A stretch of 64,000 bases of DNA from Rheinheimera texasensis DSM 17496 (GTDB lineage Bacteria; Pseudomonadota; Gammaproteobacteria; Enterobacterales; Alteromonadaceae), in contig NZ_KL544007.1 of assembly GCF_000711985.1 (NCBI RefSeq), positions 219,488 to 283,487 on the forward strand. Reading direction: 5' to 3'. This document shows positions 8,696 through 48,926 of this stretch, one piece after another. The notes under the pieces were generated by a model that saw nothing but the letters and a program-made list of their open reading frames with translations, did no database searches and was not told the DNA's origin. How positions within the stretch are numbered: the stretch's first letter is position 1; each line of letters starts with the position of its first letter. The translations under genes were made by a program, and so were the position numbers.

Positions 8696-9181
8696 TTAAT
8701 TCAGGATCTCGCCGGGTTGATACTCCAAATCATTCAGTTCGGCCATCAGGCTGGCAAAAATGTGCGTCCAGCCTTCAATTAATTGCTGGCGATACAAAGC
8801 CCATTGCGCGGAGGTCTGGTGGCTCAGTACCAGTTCGCACCCCAACGGGTGCGGCTGAAATTGTAACTGCACCATGTCTGGTTCGGCGAGGCCAGGCGGC
8901 GAGCACCTGGCCATCGCGCTGGTGCTGCAACTGAACAGCAGCAAGTGCGGGCGCAGGATTTGATGATACTCGGCAGTATGGATCCACTGATGTCCATTTA
9001 ACTGTTCGATGACGCGAAATTGCTGATTGGGGGTGAATTCCAGCTGCAGGTGATGCATCCGGCCCTGCGGCGTGGCGAACATCCAGCGACCGGCCTGATG
9101 CTCGGCCAGCCAATGGTCAAATACTTGTGTCGGGGGCTGACGAAATAAATGACGAACCTGAATGAGTTCCGACTCAACCAT
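8696..9181 (-). CDS. SRPBCC/AHSA1-like domain protein
   Basis: A 161-residue cytoplasmic protein with the look of the START/AHSA1 ligand-binding fold: an N-terminal strand (ELIQVRHLFRQPPTQVFDHW), a middle segment with W/G pattern, and a C-terminal amphipathic helix (LIEGWTHIFASLMAEL). The start at 9181 has AAGGAGTGGTG directly before it; a longer frame to 9277 has no ribosome site. Ligand and function are unknown. It lies between rlmA and the VOC gene on the same strand. Confidence 0.65.
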   Translation of the reverse strand: MVESELIQVRHLFRQPPTQVFDHWLAEHQAGRWMFATPQGRMHHLQLEFTPNQQFRVIEQLNGHQWIHTAEYHQILRPHLLLFSCSTSAMARCSPPGLAEPDMVQLQFQPHPLGCELVLSHQTSAQWALYRQQLIEGWTHIFASLMAELNDLEYQPGEILN

Positions 9182-9305
9182 CACACCACTCCTTGTTGGA
9201 TGCCTGTTGTTGGATGCCTGGCCCGATAGACATCTACCGGATTCAACAGTGTAGGAGCAGGAATATGACGTACCCAAGTCAGCCGGATGATTTGTCAGAA
9301 AAATA

Positions 9306-27749: not shown

Positions 27750-29657
27750 TCAGGGTTCCAGGCTCAGCATCGGGTTTGGCGTCGCTGCAGTAAGGTCCGG
27801 CAATGTAAACTGGGCCTGCAGCTGTTGAAATAAAGCCGGCCGATATTGTTGCAGCCGCTTGAGTCGTGCCAGATGCGACGGTTCCAGAGCCTCGGTTTCC
27901 TGCAGAATATAAAACAGCGCCGGGTGCAGTTGTTGCTGCAGGTAACTGGCATCCAAAGCCAAATCCAGCGCGTCCGGGCCTAGCGGGTTCTGCTGCAGCG
28001 GCACTTTGGCGTTAATCAATAAACTCACGGCTTCAGCGCTGTCGGCAAAAGCCTGCGGGTATAAGTTGCGGCCTTTAGTATCGGTGATACCCAGATCAAA
28101 ACCGTTTTGCTGTAGTTCCTGCCAGTGTTCAATGCCGTCATAAGTGAGCATGTGTTCGAGCTGACTGACCGCCAGGCCAGTTGGCCAGTGCTTCGCCCAT
28201 GCTGGTCGCGCCGACAATGCAAGCAGTAGGGCCGCAGCTTGCTCTGGAGACGGCCCCGACTCGATGGCTTTGATAAAATCAGTTTCGTTGACGGGTACGT
28301 CATAGGACGTCAGCAATGCTGTTTCCTGCTGTTGCCAGTAAAACGCCAAGAGCGCCGGGTCCAGCTGATGCAACAGCAGTGGCAATTCGTTGGGACTATG
28401 CTGTTGCTCCAGCCTGTCCAGCTGGTTCACAACTTCGCTTTCCGGCCACAAACCTTGCGCGTTAAGCGCAGCATCCTGCTCGGCCTGACAAGCTGTTTTG
28501 ATTTGTTGCTGTTGTTGGTCAAGCTGCTGATATTGCTTTAGCAAGTTCCGCAGTGCTTCCAGAGCCGGCAGGCTTTGCAGTTGCAACAGCTGTTGGGCTT
28601 TAGCGAGGTTGATCAGGTCTTCGTCGTAGCTGATAAATCTGGGTTCGCCCAAAGCAGAAACCTGCAGAAAAGTCCTGCCGTTTTTCGTCGTGTTGAGTTC
28701 CCCATGCAGCGGATAACCAAGATGTTGCAGGAATTGAATAGTCGCCTGTTGGCGTTGCCGGCGCTCACTATCGTCCCAGCCTTTTTTCCGCCATTTACTG
28801 CTAAAAGCAAAATCCATGGCACTAAACAGGCCATCCTGGCGACTTGGCAGTACTTGATAACGCGCGAGCAGTGGCAGTAAATCATCTCTGAAATGATAGA
28901 CCGCCAGATCAGCCAAATTAAACAGGTTGTGCCGGCTTTGCAGTTCATCGGTCTGTTGCAGGAGCTGTTCTAACTGTTGGGCGCTAAGTTGCTCACCAAT
29001 CAGCCCACTGTAATCTCTGGGTAAAAAACGCAGACCAGTCAAAGCCTTGTCAAATTGCTGCTGATGCAGTGCCATCATCAGCAAGATGGTTTTCGGCTGA
29101 AAATCATCCAACCGGCCTGAAGGTTCCAGATATACCAGCTCGATTTCAGGTGCTTGACGTAAGTAGTCGATTTTCTTCGTTGGCGGGATCTGTTTTAGGC
29201 CAGCATAAAATTCACTGTAGGCCTTTTGTTGAAAGACATGCTGCTGCAAACTGCCTTGATAATGGCTCAGCGCATCCAGCAATTCAAATTGCAGTTCAGC
29301 CTGGCGCTGGCTCAGCGCTTTGTCTTGTGTCGGGCGGTCGCGCAGCATCAGCAATAGCTGCTCAGGACCGTCGCCTTGTTGCAACCGCTCATACAGATAT
29401 TGCCGGATGGCTTCACGCTCAGGCGTTTTGTGCCAGTCCTGATCTGGCAGCACTTGCTGGCAAACCGGCGTTGTTTTGGCCACTGGCGCGTCGGGTTGAG
29501 TAGGGGCTGATACAGTGGTAGCGGGCTGGGCGACGCCTGTGTCGACAGCAGCAGTCTGCTGTTGTGGCTTTGCTGGTTGGTTCACTGGTAACAGCCAGTA
29601 CAGCCCAATGCCGCCGCAAAGCAGCGCAAGCAGAGCCAAGCTGCGGCTTTTACTCAT
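27750..29657 (-). CDS. large envelope-anchored protein of unknown family, paralogue B
   Basis: A 635-residue protein with an N-terminal membrane anchor or signal (SLALLALLCGGIGLYWLLP), a Gln/Ala/Thr linker, then a helical region. It is a paralogue of the preceding gene: both share NLADLAVYHFRDDLLPLL-type, GLFSAMDFAF-type, GYPLHG, KGRNLYPQAFA, GPDALDLALD and a C-terminal SHLARLKRLQQYRPALF-type block in the same order. The C-terminal part (about 535-610) resembles ankyrin-like helix pairs (GRNLYPQAFADSAEAVSLLI). The ATG at 29657 overlaps the upstream gene's stop by 8 bases. I do not recognise the family. Confidence 0.75.
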   Translation of the reverse strand: MSKSRSLALLALLCGGIGLYWLLPVNQPAKPQQQTAAVDTGVAQPATTVSAPTQPDAPVAKTTPVCQQVLPDQDWHKTPEREAIRQYLYERLQQGDGPEQLLLMLRDRPTQDKALSQRQAELQFELLDALSHYQGSLQQHVFQQKAYSEFYAGLKQIPPTKKIDYLRQAPEIELVYLEPSGRLDDFQPKTILLMMALHQQQFDKALTGLRFLPRDYSGLIGEQLSAQQLEQLLQQTDELQSRHNLFNLADLAVYHFRDDLLPLLARYQVLPSRQDGLFSAMDFAFSSKWRKKGWDDSERRQRQQATIQFLQHLGYPLHGELNTTKNGRTFLQVSALGEPRFISYDEDLINLAKAQQLLQLQSLPALEALRNLLKQYQQLDQQQQQIKTACQAEQDAALNAQGLWPESEVVNQLDRLEQQHSPNELPLLLHQLDPALLAFYWQQQETALLTSYDVPVNETDFIKAIESGPSPEQAAALLLALSARPAWAKHWPTGLAVSQLEHMLTYDGIEHWQELQQNGFDLGITDTKGRNLYPQAFADSAEAVSLLINAKVPLQQNPLGPDALDLALDASYLQQQLHPALFYILQETEALEPSHLARLKRLQQYRPALFQQLQAQFTLPDLTAATPNPMLSLEP

Positions 29658-31566
29658 TCGCCACCGCCAACACCGGGTTGGCTTCATAGCTGCTGAGATC
29701 GTCCAGCCAGCCGAGTAACAATGGCTCTTTGGCGAGTGCCTGCTGCAGCGCAGTAAAAACAGCAGGTTGATACTGCTGCAAGCGACGTAGCCTGCTGAGA
29801 TGCGAGGCTTCCGGCTTACCCATTTTCTGCATCATGTTCACTACCGCCGGATGCAGTTTTTTATCAAGGTAGCTTTGGTCCAGCGCCAAATCTAAAGCGT
29901 CTGGTCCGACAGCTGGCTGGTCGACGGCAACATTTTCCTCTAACAGCAAAGCGACCGCATCTGGCCCGGCGGCAAAGGCCTGTGGATATAAATTACGGCC
30001 GTAGATGTCCTGCAAGTGCAAAGAAAAACCGTGTTTGCTTAATTCGCGCCACAAAGTGGCGGTATCATTTTGTTTTTGCAGAAAATTCAAATGCAACACT
30101 GCTTTGGGTTGCCAATAGACAGCAAGTGCCGGCTGTTGCTGTAAACGACCCAATGCGATGGTAGCCCGAAAAGGGTCCACGTTGATTTGTATCTGCCGAA
30201 CGATTTCTGCCTGATCCTCTGCCTTGAACTCTGGCAGTTCGATGCTAAAACCTTTTGGCCAGAGTCTGGTAACGAGGCCCGGATCACGTTGATGCAAAAT
30301 GGTTGCAGCCGCGCTCAATTCACCACTGATTTGTTCCACCCGGCTTACTTCCTGCCGGATTTTCGCCTCGCTCCAAAGTCCTTCAGACTGCAGTTTTAAC
30401 TGGTTTTGCCTGGCACAGTTTTCATTGGTCTGCTTGTATACCCTGGCTTTGTCTTCCAATGGTTGTAACATTTGCTGCAGTTCAGCATTCGGTTGCATCG
30501 GCTGGACTTTTTCCAGTTGCTGAGCAGCTGCAAGTTCCAGTAATAACGGTTGATAAAGGGGGCCATTTTCACCCCCGGCAAAGTTCCAGATTGAATCAAT
30601 GATCAGAAAGGGCCGGCCTTCGGCGTCAACGCCTTGCTGGCCATGCAGCGGATAACCTTTTCGCTGCAAATACTCGATGGTTTTACGACGATCGCCGAGA
30701 GCTTTTTGGCCTATTGTTTTAGCCGGCCATTCCGGCGCGGTAAACGCGAGGTCGAGTGCACTATAGAGCCCTGGCTGCAATGAAGGTCTGAGCTGAAATT
30801 CTTCCAGCACAGGCAGTAAATCGGCTCGTAAAAATAACACGGCAAAGTCGGCCAGATTCATCCCTTCCCGCTGAAAGTTGGACAAGCCGCTACTTTTTTG
30901 CAGCAGCTGTTGCAAGGTTGCCGCGCTCAGATGATACAAAGATAAGCTGTAATCCGAAGGGCTCAGACTGATACCGTCTAACGCTATGTTCAGCAGCGTC
31001 GGATCATCGCCAGCGGCCGTAAGTAACATCGATTTCAGCGAAAACTCGGACAGGCTGCCGTCGTCGTTTTGCCAGGCCGCATGAAACAATGGGGAATTTT
31101 TAATGCTCTGAATGGCCTGCGCCCGATCTTTTGCTGCCAACTGTTGTTCCAGCTGGCTTAACTCGGCGATATGGTCGTCCATTTTCAGCAGGTTTTTATA
31201 TTGACTGCTGGCAAAAAGCCCGGCGGCCATTGCCAGCTCAGACCGGTGTGGTGTGTACATCAGCACGTGCCGAAGTTCAGTGTAGGGCACTCCGACTTTG
31301 AGTTGTTGTAACAGGAAGTCCTGCAGACGCTGACGGTCATCTGCCATCGCTTCCTGCTGCTGTGATGCGCTATACACAACACAGTTTGCCGTTTGTTTGG
31401 TTAGCCCAGAGTTTGCGCTTTGCAACGCTTCAGCCTGAGGTGTGGTTTGCGCCTTGAATGTTTCCACACTGGGTTGGGGGAGCGTAGGGGTGTCCCGACC
31501 GAACCATAAATAAAGGGTCACAGCGACTGTGACCGCGGCCAGCACATTGGTTCTGATCGAAGGCAT
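29650..31566 (-). CDS. large envelope-anchored protein of unknown family, paralogue A
   Basis: A 638-residue protein with an N-terminal hydrophobic anchor (VLAAVTVAVTLYLWFG), a linker, a helical middle and the same C-terminal block as paralogue B (GRNLYPQAFAAGPDAVALLL, GPDALDLALDQSYLDKKLHP, SHLSRLRRLQQYQPAVF). An unpaired Cys pair seems to be shared with B near residues 60 (NCVV, PVCQQV) and near 390 (ENCARQN, KTACQAE), which might form a disulfide outside the cytoplasm (inference). It follows the PH-like gene by 12 bases and overlaps B by 8, so the three are one unit. Function unknown. Confidence 0.75.
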   Translation of the reverse strand: MPSIRTNVLAAVTVAVTLYLWFGRDTPTLPQPSVETFKAQTTPQAEALQSANSGLTKQTANCVVYSASQQQEAMADDRQRLQDFLLQQLKVGVPYTELRHVLMYTPHRSELAMAAGLFASSQYKNLLKMDDHIAELSQLEQQLAAKDRAQAIQSIKNSPLFHAAWQNDDGSLSEFSLKSMLLTAAGDDPTLLNIALDGISLSPSDYSLSLYHLSAATLQQLLQKSSGLSNFQREGMNLADFAVLFLRADLLPVLEEFQLRPSLQPGLYSALDLAFTAPEWPAKTIGQKALGDRRKTIEYLQRKGYPLHGQQGVDAEGRPFLIIDSIWNFAGGENGPLYQPLLLELAAAQQLEKVQPMQPNAELQQMLQPLEDKARVYKQTNENCARQNQLKLQSEGLWSEAKIRQEVSRVEQISGELSAAATILHQRDPGLVTRLWPKGFSIELPEFKAEDQAEIVRQIQINVDPFRATIALGRLQQQPALAVYWQPKAVLHLNFLQKQNDTATLWRELSKHGFSLHLQDIYGRNLYPQAFAAGPDAVALLLEENVAVDQPAVGPDALDLALDQSYLDKKLHPAVVNMMQKMGKPEASHLSRLRRLQQYQPAVFTALQQALAKEPLLLGWLDDLSSYEANPVLAVANE

Positions 31567-31578
31567 AAAAAATGCCGG

Positions 31579-32193
31579 TTAGTTTTTAATAAAAGTTTCA
31601 AACACGCCGCTGTAGTCTTTGCGATAAGCCTGCGACATCGCATCGCTTAGCGTGTCGTGATAAAAACTATAAAGTTCGCGGGCTTGCGCGGCGATATTGG
31701 CACCTTCACCGCTTTGCCGGGCCAGCGAATTCACCACGTGCGACAGGCTCTTTTCCACCGTCTGTAAATCCCGTTGCTCGGCTTCCATCAGCAAACTGAT
31801 TTCGGTCAGGGCTTTGTAGATGTCTTTCAGTTGTTCGATATGCTCTTTATGCACGTCGATGGAAAAATCGGTGCTGTGGATGCGGAATTTCAGTTCGACA
31901 TCGAGATCAATAGTGCCGGCCGTTTCCAATGACACATTGCGGATGTCGGCATTGATATATTCGTAGCGCTTCAGCAGGCGCTTTTTACTGAGCGCGGTGT
32001 TGCCGTCCAGATGCAGCAAAGCGAAGTTAGTAAAACAATATTCGTCGGTTTTGCTTTTGATTAAAAAGAAGATTTTTTCGCCGGTTTCGTGCTTGATGTA
32101 GTCGTCGGCTTCAACTTTATTGTAGTTTTCCGGGCTGATGACACGACCGATATCACTTAATCCCAATGCTTCTGAGGCAATTTTACCAAACAT
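31579..32193 (-). CDS. bacterial PH-like domain protein (YvbH-type)
   Basis: A 204-residue soluble protein. The N-terminal half is a bacterial PH-like domain with strands such as KIFFLIKSKTDEYCFTNFAL and SKKRLLKRYEYINADI, as seen in YvbH-type proteins; the C-terminal half (from about 118) is helical and probably oligomerises (EHIEQLKDIYKALTEISLLM). It is the first gene of a transcript that continues into the two large paralogues. I see no catalytic motif. Confidence 0.75.
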   Translation of the reverse strand: MFGKIASEALGLSDIGRVISPENYNKVEADDYIKHETGEKIFFLIKSKTDEYCFTNFALLHLDGNTALSKKRLLKRYEYINADIRNVSLETAGTIDLDVELKFRIHSTDFSIDVHKEHIEQLKDIYKALTEISLLMEAEQRDLQTVEKSLSHVVNSLARQSGEGANIAAQARELYSFYHDTLSDAMSQAYRKDYSGVFETFIKN

Positions 32194-32353
32194 AACCTGT
32201 TCCTTGTCTTTGATATGGAAACGAGAGACTGAGGTTCAGAGCTTACCAAGGGCGTACATGCGCTGCAACACACAAAATGTTAACAACTTTGTCGGGCAAT
32301 TAGCGCACGGCGCACTGAAGTGAGGCAGGCAAAAGTTGGGAGAGGACAGAGCT

Positions 32354-32384
32354 TGAGGCAGCTGTTTTTAGGCGAGCTGCCTCA
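32354..32384 (-). terminator. hairpin after the his operon
   Basis: Perfect 10-base arms TGAGGCAGCT and AGCTGCCTCA around an 11-base loop, starting 8 bases after the hisIE stop. There is no strong T-run on the minus strand, so it may be a weak or Rho-assisted terminator, or an mRNA 3' end stabiliser. Confidence 0.55.
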
Positions 32385-32391
32385 TCTGGCG

Positions 32392-33036
32392 TTACTGCTG
32401 ATGCCGTGCTTTTAATACATCAATGACATCATTGAGCTGCAAGTCCTGTGAGCGCAACAGCACCAGCAGGTGGAAGATTAAATCCGCTGCTTCGTTTTTC
32501 AGCTCTTCACGATCGCCGGCCATCGCAGCTAACGCAGATTCCACGCCTTCTTCACCGACTTTTTGTGCGATGCGTTTGACGCCGCGGGCAAACAAACTGG
32601 CGGTGTAGCTGGACTTTGGATCGGCATGCTGGCGAGCGGCGATCACAGTTTCCAAATCGGTTAAAAAGCTCAACGCCGGCGCGTTACGCTGTGCATCATG
32701 CCAACAGGTTTCGGTGCCAACATGGCAGGTTGGCCCGTCCGGCAACGCCAGTGCCAGCAAGCTGTCGCGATCGCAGTCGGCGCTTAAACTTTGCAGTTTT
32801 AAGAAATGGCCTGAGCTTTCACCTTTGGTCCAGAGCCGGTTTTTACTACGACTGAAAAAGGTGATCCGGCCGCTTTGTAGTGTGGTCGCCACGGCTTCGC
32901 TGTTGGCAAACCCCTGCATCAGCACTTTGCCGGACACCGCGTGCTGCACTATCAGCGGCAGTAAGCCGTCGGCCGGCCATTTTAATAGTTCCAGCTGATC
33001 AGGCAGCGGCGCATTCGCATCTAATACAAAACTCAT
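32392..33036 (-). CDS. hisI: bifunctional phosphoribosyl-AMP cyclohydrolase/phosphoribosyl-ATP pyrophosphatase HisIE
   Basis: A 214-residue fusion. The N-terminal HisI domain shows [11 protein letters not shown] near 38-48, [18 protein letters not shown] near 59-76 and the cysteine block [24 protein letters not shown] near 104-117 supplies further zinc ligands. The C-terminal HisE domain (from about 125) has [19 protein letters not shown]. It performs steps 2 and 3 of histidine synthesis. The ATG overlaps the hisF stop by 4 bases. It is the last gene of the operon. Confidence 0.97.
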
Positions 33037-33806
33037 GGCCGGATCTCCACGTTGGCAGCGATTAAGGCTGCTTTTAAATCAGCGATGGCAATAATGCCTT
33101 TATGAAACACTGAAGCGGCGAGGGCACCGTCGACGTCCGCGTCGCGAAACACGTCAATAAAATGCTGCACCGCGCCGGCGCCGCCGGAGGCAATCAACGG
33201 CACCTGGCAATACTGGCGCACTAAAGAGAGCTGCGCTAAATCGTAGCCCTGACGCACACCGTCCTGATTCATGCAGTTCAGTACGATTTCACCGGCACCG
33301 CGGCGCTGCACTTCTTCCACCCAATCCAGTAATAACCAGCGGGTTTTTTGGCTGCGTGTTTCATCTCCGGTGTATTGGTACACCTGATACTGGCCGGTGG
33401 TGGCGTCAAAATAGCTGTCGATACCCACCACCACACATTGCTGGCCAAAAGCCGCATTCAGTTCACTAATCAGTTCCGGCCGCGCCAGCGCCGGGCTATT
33501 GACCGAAATTTTGTCGGCGCCCAGTTCCAGAATTTTACCGGCATCCGCCACCGATTTAATGCCGCCGGCGACACAAAACGGGATATCAATGACTTCAGCA
33601 ATTTTGCGCACCCAGCTTTTGTCGACGACACGGCCGTCGCTGGAAGCGGTGATATCATAAAACACCAGCTCGTCAGCGCCTTCTTCGGCGTAACGGGCGG
33701 CGAGCGGCACTATGTCACCGATGATTTCGTGATTGCGAAATTGCACACCTTTGACGACGACGCCATCACGTACATCCAGACAAGGAATTAATCGTTTTGC
33801 CAGCAT
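33033..33806 (-). CDS. hisF: imidazole glycerol phosphate synthase subunit HisF
   Basis: A 257-residue TIM barrel. The catalytic Asp is in [20 protein letters not shown] opening ([17 protein letters not shown]11) and the second Asp in [16 protein letters not shown] near 130, with [11 protein letters not shown] near 222 as the phosphate loop. It takes ammonia produced by HisH. The start overlaps the end of hisA by 19 bases. Confidence 0.97.
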
Positions 33807-34540
33807 GCGATCGCCTCCTCAATGGTGAATTTGCCTTCCAGCAGGGCGCGGCCGAGGATCACGCCAGCCACTGGCGACGGTTGACCATTTTGCCCACGCA
33901 GGCTGCGAATATGGTCGAGGTCGCCAACACCGCCGGACGCTTGCCAGGCGATGCCGGGATATTTCGCTGCAAGTTCCTGATACAGCGCAACATTTGGCCC
34001 CTGTAAAGTGCCATCGCGGCTGATGTCGGTACAAAGCACATGCCGCGCGCCAGCGTCCAGCATGCCATCGAGCACTTGCTCCAGCGTGATGCCGGAGGCT
34101 TTGATCCAGCCATGGCTTGGTAAGGTTTTTTCGCCTTGTTCGTTAATGGATACGTCAAGCGCCAGCACGATGCGCTCGCCGCCGTATTGCCGGAGCCACT
34201 GTTGCACCAAAGCACTTTCCCGAATCGCCAAAGATCCAATCACCACACGGCTGGCGCCGGCTTCTAACAAAGTGACTAAATCGGCTTCGCTACGCACACC
34301 GCCGCCGACCTGTACCGGCAGCGGGCTTTGTTGCATCAGCTCACGCAACAATGCGGTCTGGCGTTTGCTGGCATCTTTGGCGCCGGACAAATCAACCAGA
34401 TGTAACACGCCGGCACCGGCCGCGGCGTAGCGGTCGCGCAGTTCAAACGGTGTTTGGCTGTAGTGGGTGGTCTGGTCATAACTGCCCTGATAGAGGCGTA
34501 CGGTCTGACCATCAATTAAATCTATTGCCGGGATTATCAT
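33788..34540 (-). CDS. hisA: phosphoribosylformimino-AICAR phosphate isomerase HisA
   Basis: A 250-residue TIM barrel homologous to His[19 protein letters not shown] supplies the catalytic Asp at residue 7, and [14 protein letters not shown] near 126 the second Asp. [13 protein letters not shown] near 77 and [11 protein letters not shown] near 197 are the phosphate loops. It opens the ring of ProFAR by Amadori rearrangement. It follows hisH by 14 bases. Confidence 0.97.
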
Positions 34541-35194: not shown

Positions 35195-36265
35195 TCAGAG
35201 CACACCTTTACTGCTTGGCAGCGCATCGCCGGATTTTAAAATCGCCTGACCCAGAGCGCGGCCAAAGGCTTTAAACAACCCTTCGACCATGTGGTGTTTA
35301 TTGCCTGGCGATACTGACAAATGCAGCGTCATCAACATGGCATCACAGAGGCTTCGGAAAAAGTGCTCAACCATTTCCAGATTCAGCTCACCAACTTTAC
35401 CTTCGCCGAGCGCAGCATCGAATTTCAGCAGCGGCCGGCCGGATAAATCCAGCACGGCTTCAGCGCGGCATTCGTCCATCGGCAACACAAAACCAAAACG
35501 GTTAATACCGCGTTTGTCGCCAATGGCTTGTTTCAGTGCCTGACCCAGCGCCAGTGCGGCATCTTCCACACTGTGGTGGTCGTCGATGTGTAAATCGCCG
35601 GTCACGGACAGCTGCAGTGAAAACCCGCCATGGGTGGCAATTTGGTCGAGCATATGGTCGAAAAAGCCAATGCCGGTGCTGATTTGATTACCGCCTTTGC
35701 GGTCCAGATCCAATTGTACGCTGATATCGGTTTCACGCGTGGTACGGCGCACTGAACCCACCCGGCCACGGCTTAACAGCTGGCGGGTGATTTCGGCCCA
35801 GCCCAGTGTGGTGCGGTCGTAGCGAAACGCTGGCAAGCCCATATTTTCGGCGAGTTGTACGTCGGTCAGACGGTCGCCGATGACATAAGAGCGGGTGAAA
35901 TCAACACGGCCTTGTTGCAGGTAATCTTTGACCAGGCCGAGTTTTGGTTTGCGGCAGCTGCAGTTGTCGCGCTCAAAGTGCGGGCAAATCAGCACGTCGT
36001 CAAAGCGGATACCTTGTGACTCTAACAGCTGCATCATCTTATCGTGCGGCGCATCAAAAGTGTGGCGCGGAAAACTGTCTGTCCCCAGGCCATCCTGATT
36101 AGTCACCATCACCAGGCGAAAACCGGCGTCCTGTAATTTCAGTAAAGCGGGGACCAAACCTGGCTCGTATGCCAATTTTTCTAGGGAATCCAGTTGCTTA
36201 TCAATTGGTGGCTCTTCCACCATTGTGCCGTCACGGTCGATAAATAAAATAGGCTGTCCGGCCAT
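35195..36265 (-). CDS. hisB: bifunctional histidinol-phosphatase/imidazoleglycerol-phosphate dehydratase HisB
   Basis: A 356-residue fusion as in enterobacteria. The N-terminal HAD phosphatase has [13 protein letters not shown] near 8 and the zinc-binding [17 protein letters not shown] near 101-117. The C-terminal dehydratase from about 165 has [31 protein letters not shown] near 205 and [12 protein letters not shown] near 234, with a C-terminal [15 protein letters not shown]. The ATG shares a base with the hisC stop (TAATG). The open frame continues 189 bases upstream, but that lies inside hisC. Confidence 0.97.
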
Positions 36266-37368
36266 TATTGTTCCCCTGCGATGCCTGCGCTTTGCTGCGC
36301 ACAAAAAGTGGTGATTGCTTGTTCCAGCAGCGCCATTTCTGCCGGGCTGCCGATCGATACCCGCACAACCTGTGAGCATCCTAAGCGCTCTAAACCAAGC
36401 TGACTGGATTGGTTGCGGATCAAAATCCCTTGCGAGGCGATACCGCTGACCCAAGCGGCGGCATCTTCGACGCCCAGCAGCACATAGTTGGCGTTGGAAT
36501 TAAACACCCGGCGTACCTGCGGCAACTCGCTGGCAAAATGGCAAAAAGCGGCACGCAGCTCGTTGATGGTTTGAACGCTTTGGCGCATCCGCTGCTGGCC
36601 GTCATTTGACAACGCCTGAGTGGCAATCTCCGCAACAGGCGCGGCGATAGGATAGGGCGCAATCATTTTTTTCAGGGCGCCAATGACTTCCGGTGCCGCC
36701 AGTGTAAAACCACAGCGTAAACCAGCCAGCGCAAAGGCTTTGGATAAAGTGCGTAAGATCACTAAATTTGGATATTGTGCCAGTAAATCGACAGTGGACG
36801 CTTGTGGCACAAATTCGATATAGGCTTCGTCTACCACCACCAAAGCGCTGTCCCGATAGAATTCCAGCAGCTCGACGATTTGGTTGCGTGGGATTAAGTC
36901 GCCAGTTGGATTATTTGGGCTGCAGATAAACACCAGTTTGGTACTGGCACTTTGTTTGATGGCCGGTAAGTCCAGCGTCAGCTCTGCGGTTAAAGGCACC
37001 ACAGTGCGGCCGACCTGATTGCTTTGCGCGCTGATGGCATACATGCCATAGGTCGGCGGGCAAATGACAATGTTGTCATGGCCCGGTTCACAGAAGCTGC
37101 GAATAAGCAGCTCAATGCCTTCATCGGCACCGCGGCTGACCAGCACCTGCTCAGCTGCCACACCAGCATAGCTTGCGTACGCGGCAATCAACGCTGGCGG
37201 CTGACAATCCGGATACCGGTTAAAACTGCCGGTTAACTGATATTCCGGGGCTAAGGCGTTTTCGTTGGCGTTCAGCCAAACTGAGCCACCGGACATCGAC
37301 AATCGCGCTGAGGCATAAGGCACCAGCGCTTTGACGCTGTCGCGGGCTAAATTACTGATACTGCTCAT
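36265..37368 (-). CDS. hisC: histidinol-phosphate aminotransferase HisC
   Basis: A 367-residue PLP-dependent aminotransferase of fold type [17 protein letters not shown] near 29 is the HisC signature, [14 protein letters not shown] near 152, DEAYIEFVP near 182, and the PLP-binding lysine in [17 protein letters not shown] near 211. It converts imidazole acetol phosphate to histidinol phosphate. The ATG overlaps the hisD stop by 4 bases. Confidence 0.97.
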
Positions 37369-47509: not shown

Positions 47510-48103
47510 ATGAAACTAATCCCGATCCTTTTCAGTTCATTATTGGTGCTGGGGGGCTGTGCCAGTTACCCGGAACCCGTGCGGGTAGCCGATGAAACCA
47601 CGCTGGTCAGTTTTCCGGCCACAGTCAAAGCAGGCCTGACCCAGGGCCCGGCACGCTGGAGCGGTGTGATTGCCAAAGTGCAAAATAATAGCCAGAACAC
47701 CCGGCTTGAGATTGTTTATTTCCCCAGCGGTTCGCATGGCCGGCCGCAGACTGATAAAGATACCGAAGGCCGGTTTGTCGCTTATGCCAAAGGCTTTTTG
47801 GACCCGGTGGTGTATCAACCCGGCAAGCAAGTTACAGTCCTTGGTCAGCTTAGTCCTTTTGAAGCCGGTAAAGTTGACCAGTTTCAATATAGTTACCCGG
47901 TGATCCAGGCGTCAGCGGTGTATTTATGGCCAAAACAACAGGAAACTACCCGGGTAGAAGTTGAACCCTGGCCGTTGTGGCGTGGACCTTATCCGTATTG
48001 GGGTTATGGCCCCGGCATGCGGATCAGAACAACAATTCCAACAGGTGCAACTCCAACACAAGGCCCGGCAGATGTACAACAGCCCAGTTCGCAACAGCGT
48101 TAA
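47510..48103 (+). CDS. Slp-family outer-membrane lipoprotein (YeaY-like)
   Basis: A 197-residue lipoprotein with signal MKLIPILFSSLLVLGGCASY (Cys 17 as lipid site). The Slp fold is seen in ARWSGVIAKVQNNSQNTRLE near 48-67, GRFVAYAKGFLDPVVYQPGK near 87-106 and VTVLGQLSPFEAGKVDQFQY. The C-terminal tail is Trp/Pro/Tyr-rich (WPLWRGPYPYWGYGPG) and then Thr/Gln-rich. Slp proteins are starvation- or stationary-phase outer-membrane lipoproteins; yeaY lies in the same position between tsaB and fadD in E. coli. It overlaps the methyltransferase start by 32 bases. Confidence 0.88.
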   Translation: MKLIPILFSSLLVLGGCASYPEPVRVADETTLVSFPATVKAGLTQGPARWSGVIAKVQNNSQNTRLEIVYFPSGSHGRPQTDKDTEGRFVAYAKGFLDPVVYQPGKQVTVLGQLSPFEAGKVDQFQYSYPVIQASAVYLWPKQQETTRVEVEPWPLWRGPYPYWGYGPGMRIRTTIPTGATPTQGPADVQQPSSQQR

Positions 48104-48926
48104 ATCAGTTTTATTTGTGTTGTGCTGCGCGGTTGCGCAGGCCCAAGCGGCAGTGCCGGCTGGCTTACAGCAGTGGATTGATGCGCCACAACGCAGTGCA
48201 GAGAACAAAGCCCGGGATCAATACCGTCATCCGGCGGAAACTCTGGGTTTTTTTGGTCTGCAGCCAGAGATGAAAGTGTTGGAAATATGGCCGGCGCGTG
48301 GCTGGTATACCGAAATTCTGGCGCCGTATCTCAAAGAGCGCGGCGAACTGACCATTGCCAATTTCCGTCGTAACGATGGCACGCTGGAAGATGATAAGAA
48401 AATCTTCTGGGCCAAGCTTTCCGCGCGGCTTGACGCGGACATCCGCAAAAAACCGCAGCATTTTGGCACAGTGAAATCACTGGAGTTTGACCCGCCGGCG
48501 ATGATGCAGCTGGGGCAGGTCAATTATTACGACATGGTGCTGAGTTTTCGCAATTCGCACGTCTGGAATGAAGCAGGTTATCTGCTCGATGTGTACCGTG
48601 CTTTGTTTGATGCATTAAAACCCGGCGGTACTTTGGGCTTGGTTGAACATCGTTCCAGCCGGCTGTCTGAGATCTCCAGCCGGGCTGGTGAGGGGTATCT
48701 CGATGAATATTATGTGATTTCGGTTGCGCAACAGGCTGGCTTCGTACTGGCCGAGCGGTCTGAAATCAACGCTAATCCGCTGGATACCAAAAACTACCCG
48801 AAAGGGGTTTATGCACTGCCACCGACGCTGGCGATGGGCGAACAAGACAAAGCGCGTTATCTGGCAATAGGCGAAAGCGACCGCATGACGCTGCGTTTTG
48901 TTAAACCTGTACCTGCAGCACAGTGA
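48072..48926 (+). CDS. exported methyltransferase-like protein (COG4798-type)
   Basis: A 284-residue protein. A signal peptide (VKSVLFVLCCAVAQAQA) is followed by a class I methyltransferase-like fold. The position of the SAM glycine loop reads VLEIWPARGWYTEIL near 66-80, in place of the usual E-x-G-x-G-x-G, as in a group of predicted exported methyltransferases. YYDMVLSFRNSHVWNEAG near 152 and LKPGGTLGLVEHR near 187 are further blocks. An export signal is hard to reconcile with use of cytoplasmic SAM, so binding of another ligand is possible. The start at 48072 is inside slp, 32 bases before its stop. Confidence 0.8.
   Translation: MYNSPVRNSVKSVLFVLCCAVAQAQAAVPAGLQQWIDAPQRSAENKARDQYRHPAETLGFFGLQPEMKVLEIWPARGWYTEILAPYLKERGELTIANFRRNDGTLEDDKKIFWAKLSARLDADIRKKPQHFGTVKSLEFDPPAMMQLGQVNYYDMVLSFRNSHVWNEAGYLLDVYRALFDALKPGGTLGLVEHRSSRLSEISSRAGEGYLDEYYVISVAQQAGFVLAERSEINANPLDTKNYPKGVYALPPTLAMGEQDKARYLAIGESDRMTLRFVKPVPAAQ

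Follow-up and report, generated by a model that had tools for sequence, protein, structure and literature searches.

The window, by which we mean the whole 64,000-nucleotide stretch of DNA analysed here, comes from the 4.59-Mb, 12-contig genome of Rheinheimera texasensis and contains three consecutive genes on the minus strand, encoding a PH protein (31579-32193) and two paralogues, A (29650-31566) and B (27750-29657). PH and A are separated by 12 bp, and A and B overlap by 8 bp, the bases that hold the A stop and the B start (ATGAGTAA, 29650..29657, minus strand) being identical in the only two other genomes in which the trio was found. These are Rheinheimera sp. Bin_57_1, a metagenome-assembled genome (MAG; hereafter G009), and a Gammaproteobacteria MAG that the placement tool assigns to the same genus (G018), so that two of the three genomes are metagenome-assembled; B spans two contigs in G009, and the contig of G018 holds only its first part. 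In both, 0 bp separate the PH stop from the A start. A preliminary description of this DNA had proposed three linked genes with close or overlapping junctions, and their recurrence together in three genomes bears this out. Upstream of the trio in the window lie hisIE and hisF (named by eye), and B faces a gene for a TetR-type regulator; TetR and MBL-fold proteins are window neighbours by profile. PH, A and B are presumably co-transcribed. No sigma-70-type promoter was found in the region, against 3.9 in shuffled sequences, and terminator-like sites numbered 14 against 6.9. One terminator-like hairpin, at 31534-31516 on the coding strand and so just within A, consists of an inverted repeat of 8 pairs with a T-rich tail behind it; it is of a kind prone to chance, yet unhelpful to the co-transcription of the three genes.

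The PH protein (204 aa) carries a bacterial PH domain at residues 10-132 (31798..32166; PF08000, E 1.4e-31) and a YvbH-like oligomerisation region at residues 147-204 (31582..31755; PF11724, E 3.2e-8), both on the minus strand and both scoring above the curated cut-offs (109.5 against 27.7 bits and 34.2 against 22 bits, respectively). The presence of both the PHb domain and the YvbH_ext helical region makes it a protein of the PHb2 (YvbH) type. It matches 3b77 over residues 13-204 (E 1.4e-50), a PHb2 protein reported as a C12 ring (PMC2817789). The same paper locates YvbH of B. subtilis in the sub-membrane fraction, predicts that a conserved, mostly acidic site of PHb rings binds proteins, proposes these rings as end pieces of membrane-associated complexes, and calls the physiological function of bacterial PH rings not understood, as of 2010. 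By analogy, the PH protein of the window is predicted to form a cytoplasmic ring. It is strongly conserved between the window and G009 (99% identical in protein and 96% in DNA, dN/dS 0.020). The closest relatives that we found are 3b77 itself, from Exiguobacterium, and proteins encoded on a plasmid of the cyanobacterium Chondrocystis (50% identity) and on one of Jeotgalibacillus, of the Bacillota (45%); these were the two plasmid relatives among 72,556 records, and they have neighbours other than A and B. PH matches occur in 8 of 394 genomes of the order by protein search, seven of them weak and partial, and of 398 genomes sampled from the phylum, that of the window alone has PF11724 (neither G009 nor G018 is listed in that sample). 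Since its relatives lie in a cyanobacterium and in Bacillota, and since PH and PF11724 are rare in the order and phylum samples, this gene was likely acquired from outside.

From its sequence and fold model, A (638 aa) is predicted to be anchored and to contain two ankyrin-like blocks; all its features are on the minus strand. An N-terminal hydrophobic helix, predicted to be a signal anchor (residues 1-22, 31501..31566; helix 3-22 in the model), is followed by a first ankyrin-like solenoid (residues 131-353, 30508..31176), by a long helix between the blocks that bears the conserved C384 in the model and the alignment (residues 361-394, 30385..30486), and by a conserved C-terminal ankyrin-like block (residues 511-638, 29653..30036). 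B (635 aa), likewise on the minus strand, has a hydrophobic helix at residues 4-22 in its fold model (29592..29648), a first ankyrin-like solenoid at about residues 145-358 (28584..29225) and a C-terminal ankyrin-like block at about residues 520-616 (27810..28100; fold model and family profile). Both proteins are predicted to cross the inner membrane with one helix and to stand on its periplasmic side; for A, this topology follows from the positive-inside rule. In the family alignment, the column of C384 is a cysteine in 27 of 29 members and that of C62 in 24 of 29, and such a pair would fit an oxidising periplasm. The single N-terminal helix and the cysteine pair support the envelope anchoring that the preliminary description had suggested. 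Its ankyrin-like reading of A and B is also upheld: a profile of 15 family members matches DARPins at the C-terminal block of A, the predicted folds of A and B are those of ankyrins, and one distant relative passes the Pfam Ank profile, for which A and B themselves stay below the cut-off. The two blocks of A have no similarity to each other by BLASTP (E 2.9). Searches of Pfam, NCBIfam and PADLOC gave A and B no credible family above cut-off and none with a settled function, and the earlier description had likewise named no family with this arrangement; in PADLOC-DB 2.0.0 the best value was 0.026 for A, with no match for B or PH, and at E 0.01 there was none for a third paralogue (see below), a Shewanella relative or a relative from Rheinheimera sp. 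1928-s. A and B belong to an ankyrin-like family without a name.

Our main finding goes beyond the earlier description: A is a mosaic, with a body from another allele class on a constant tail. Between the window and G009, A is 55% identical in DNA, and blastn aligns only bases 1438-1917, the last 480 of 1917; the swapped segment, nucleotides 1-1437 (30130..31566, minus strand), has no alignment to the G009 allele. As a control, 49 open reading frames that we selected from the 171-52915 part of the window were compared with the loci of G009, and 46 of them were matched. In the 45 matched genes other than A, the alignment covered most of the gene or all of it (a few stop where a G009 contig ends), and the lowest 300-bp identity was 77-95%. 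Two of the three unmatched frames lie outside the compared part of G009; the third is 8696-9277, whose flanking matched stretches are about 50 bases apart in G009. This last frame is absent from G009 rather than diverged, because its matched flanks nearly adjoin there. Along contig C48 of G009, the PH gene is 95-97% identical to that of the window; within A the identity drops to 39-63%, and at the tail of A and the start of B it is back at 81-91%.

At the protein level, the A proteins fall into two classes. The window protein is 40-100% identical in all blocks to the other members of class I (P0001, P0003, P0004), and only 15-66% identical by block, up to residue 525, to those of class II (P0005, G009 and G018), to which residues 526-638 are nevertheless 81-91% identical. 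The lowest value is that of block 1-60, which contains the anchor and the short cytoplasmic tail (15%). Across six A proteins, a set that, like the trees, leaves out the fragment P0003, 92 of 128 residues are identical in the tail (511-638); in the body blocks the share is 19-34%, and in block 1-60, which holds the anchor, it is 5%. The two classes separate in a tree of the body (support 1.00 and 0.985) and dissolve, with low support, in a tree of the C-terminal part. Between the window and G018, the four-fold sites of the A tail have diverged too (39-44% identical), so that selection, and not recent exchange, keeps the tail alike between these two. We considered a simple assembly artefact and rejected it: contig C48 itself joins a near-identical PH, a divergent A body and a similar A tail, and this class II body recurs in G018 and in the database protein P0005. 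Some caution is in order, given that G009 is a MAG with two versions of the start of B, and in DNA a clear swap is seen in a single pair, the window against G009. These two versions, which differ slightly, are borne by contigs C48 (end of L089) and C58 (start of L088) and suggest a strain mixture in the MAG.

B is not swapped. Its DNA is 86% identical between the window and G009, its first residues are kept, and its dN/dS is 0.167, the second highest among 42 usable genes (43 genes less the row 35195-36454, dropped as an apparent frame artefact; A, 33788-34540 and 47961-48926 were excluded from the set). This value leaves positive selection in B unsupported: B is under purifying selection, with no sign of an arms race. 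A third paralogue, common to all three trio genomes, lies away from the trio (L003, L010, L011), on another contig in the window genome (G000:C4:719893-721899; L051 7888-9900), where the gene before it encodes a protein of 232 aa that is hydrophobic near its N-terminus and has no Pfam match. Between the window genome and G009, this paralogue is a milder mosaic with a variable front (51-76%) and a constant tail (85-94%). Its immediate 5' flank is 90-93% identical, dropping to 60-71% towards the upstream limit of the compared locus; its 3' flank is partly unaligned and then mostly 85-92% identical. In the comparison with G018 only the first 300 bases stand out, with no clear swap beyond them.

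No spread of the trio across gammaproteobacteria was seen. PH homologues are found in 3 of 22 genomes of the genus, the three that carry the trio, and outside the genus the relatives of A and B are, at the loci examined, lone genes with varied and mostly housekeeping-looking neighbours (by eye). A has matches (E <= 0.001) in 6 of 60 relatives, window genome included; those in G009 and G018 are of the trio type, G001 and G005 each have a lone paralogue, and the match in G041 is remote. The family is patchy in the order (17 of 394 sampled genomes); a class-wide search matched 46 of 369 genomes, the matches besides that of the window genome being short and mostly at profile positions about 500-597, which we read as generic ankyrin similarity. 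A scan of genome contigs returned seven loci, five from named Rheinheimera and two from one Gammaproteobacteria MAG, and searches of protein databases returned 6, 6 and 5 matches, close relatives only, perhaps because only about 8000 candidates were scored. No relative was found in the viral contigs searched. Gene content downstream of hisIE (32193-32392 in the window; L081-L087) varies among genomes of the genus: three of the five loci with 15 kb (L081, L082, L083) have some of the TetR, MBL or later genes of the window and lack the trio, and in L084 and L085 only hisIE and hisF were matched. In G017 (L087 420-3653) there is a 1077-aa protein whose N-terminus matches the PADLOC candidate defence family PDC-S60 (E 4.5e-25). 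In G018, a putative oxidoreductase gene, and not hisIE, is upstream of the trio (contig C218, L004, 3346 bases), and hisIE was not found in this genome, which is 91% complete. As read from this one 3346-base contig, the trio is probably at another site in G018, suggesting movement.

Between the window genome and its close relative G009, the front three-quarters of A differ wholesale while its tail and its neighbours are alike, and A therefore likely recognises a changing target. We tentatively propose, as a possible function, that the three proteins act together in recognition at the envelope, as a module in which the body of A can be exchanged. A and B would each stand, with two ankyrin-like blocks, on the periplasmic side of the inner membrane. 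In A, the exchangeable body would be the part that binds a ligand differing from population to population, and the conserved C-terminal block the part that pairs with B; the cytoplasmic PH ring would gather or read the A-B pair. Our guess is that the ligand may be a foreign protein that reaches the periplasm, such as one derived from a phage or a competitor, and the output may be protective. PH is 99% identical although the anchor and cytoplasmic tail of A are swapped, which argues against a sequence-specific contact between the two; if PH makes a contact at all, it is more likely through B, since PH is constant while the A anchors differ, and the first residues of B are kept. In favour of the module, the trio recurs with kept junctions and with a different upstream gene in G018, and PH and B are unswapped while A is swapped; the milder mosaic of the third paralogue, the ring type of PH, the ankyrin likeness and the cysteine pair also speak for it. 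Against it, B is under purifying selection, PADLOC gave no credible match, the trio is known from three genomes with a clear swap in one pair, and the relatives outside the genus are lone genes among mostly housekeeping-looking ones (by eye). Of the preliminary description as a whole, the observation is confirmed and the interpretation partly supported: the support concerns the linked genes, the ankyrin likeness, the predicted anchoring and the lack of a family with a settled function, and the heteromeric complex on the outer side of the inner membrane with a cytoplasmic PH partner stays a hypothesis. A fuller version would be a polymorphic envelope receptor: a PH ring joined through the inner membrane with a pair of ankyrin-like proteins, one of which has its body exchanged as a cassette while its C-terminal docking block stays fixed, and this in more than one place in the genome, in answer to changing foreign proteins. 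It seems to us rather unlikely.

Other explanations have to be contrasted with the recognition module. A and B could be housekeeping periplasmic ankyrin-like adaptors giving AnkB-like help in folding or with cofactors, the mosaic being the consequence of recombination with a divergent donor and not of selection for diversity. This is doubtful, even if the purifying selection on B and the mostly housekeeping-looking surroundings of the relatives (examined loci, by eye) agree with it, as does an ankyrin-repeat protein that is reported to be required for catalase activity in some bacteria (PMC7567364). No catalase was recognised by eye beside the trio or in the examined loci of relatives, presence in the order is patchy, and the swap affects A, more mildly the third paralogue, and none of the 45 other matched genes. 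Alternatively, PH could be a passenger, gained by horizontal transfer and having no more in common with A and B than the operon, in which case PHb rings would act on their own in envelope stress. The nearest PH relatives found, in Exiguobacterium and on two plasmids, do have other neighbours, and the order-wide samples list only the window genome with both the A family and PH; nevertheless, A is directly downstream in all three PH genomes (0, 0 and 12 bp), one of them apparently at another site, and we regard a passenger as unlikely. More improbable still is that A and B are orphan immunity proteins against toxins delivered to the periplasm, with PH incidental. Variable bodies would fit variable toxins, and T6SS immunity proteins can occur without a T6SS of their own. 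There is also a precedent (PMC10294624) in Tli, a periplasmic ankyrin immunity protein of Enterobacter cloacae against the T6SS phospholipase Tle. However, no effector gene was recognised by eye beside A, B or the wider family, whose neighbours are partly profiled, Hcp (PF05638), a single T6SS marker, had no match in the window's genome (0/1), and the predicted signal anchor is unlike the lipoprotein form of Tli.

The trio offers a concrete candidate partner for bacterial PH rings, and a recognition body exchanged on a constant tail would make this ankyrin-like family a testable case of periplasmic diversification. In PH, A and B, known folds come together in a new arrangement, and the pattern of swapping in A is unusual. 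No description of the unit was seen in the literature searched, mainly non-subscription papers; what was found on Rheinheimera and ankyrin, judged by titles and the opening of abstracts, and on PF08000 and ankyrin deals with unrelated topics.

Among known proteins, AnkB resembles A and B in being ankyrin-like and periplasmic (predicted for A and B), but is much smaller; it is linked to catalase genes, whereas no catalase was recognised near A and B, each of which has an anchor and two blocks. Tli shares with them the ankyrin repeats (ankyrin-like in A and B), a periplasmic location (again predicted for A and B) and, possibly, the confrontation with variable foreign proteins; it differs in being a lipoprotein co-encoded with its effector, A and B having instead a predicted signal anchor, a PH gene upstream and no recognised effector. 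The lone relatives of 640-720 aa, from Shewanella and from presumed Idiomarina- or Alteromonas-like bacteria, are similar in length, have the N-terminal helix, align over most of their length and, in nearly all cases, have the cysteine pair as in A, but they are single genes with no PH of the PHb2/YvbH type seen beside them. In two Shewanella genomes, a gene for another small protein, YbjQ (PF01906; L041 6240-6566 and L043 5961-6281), follows the lone relative after 49 and 63 bp, and AIM24-like genes are nearby (by eye). Finally, the PHb2/YvbH proteins (PF08000 plus PF11724; 3b77) have the same PH domain and C-terminal helical region as the PH protein of the window; while the relatives found belong to Bacillota and a cyanobacterium, here the gene of the PH protein, with its predicted ring, is accompanied by those of two ankyrin-like proteins with predicted membrane anchors.
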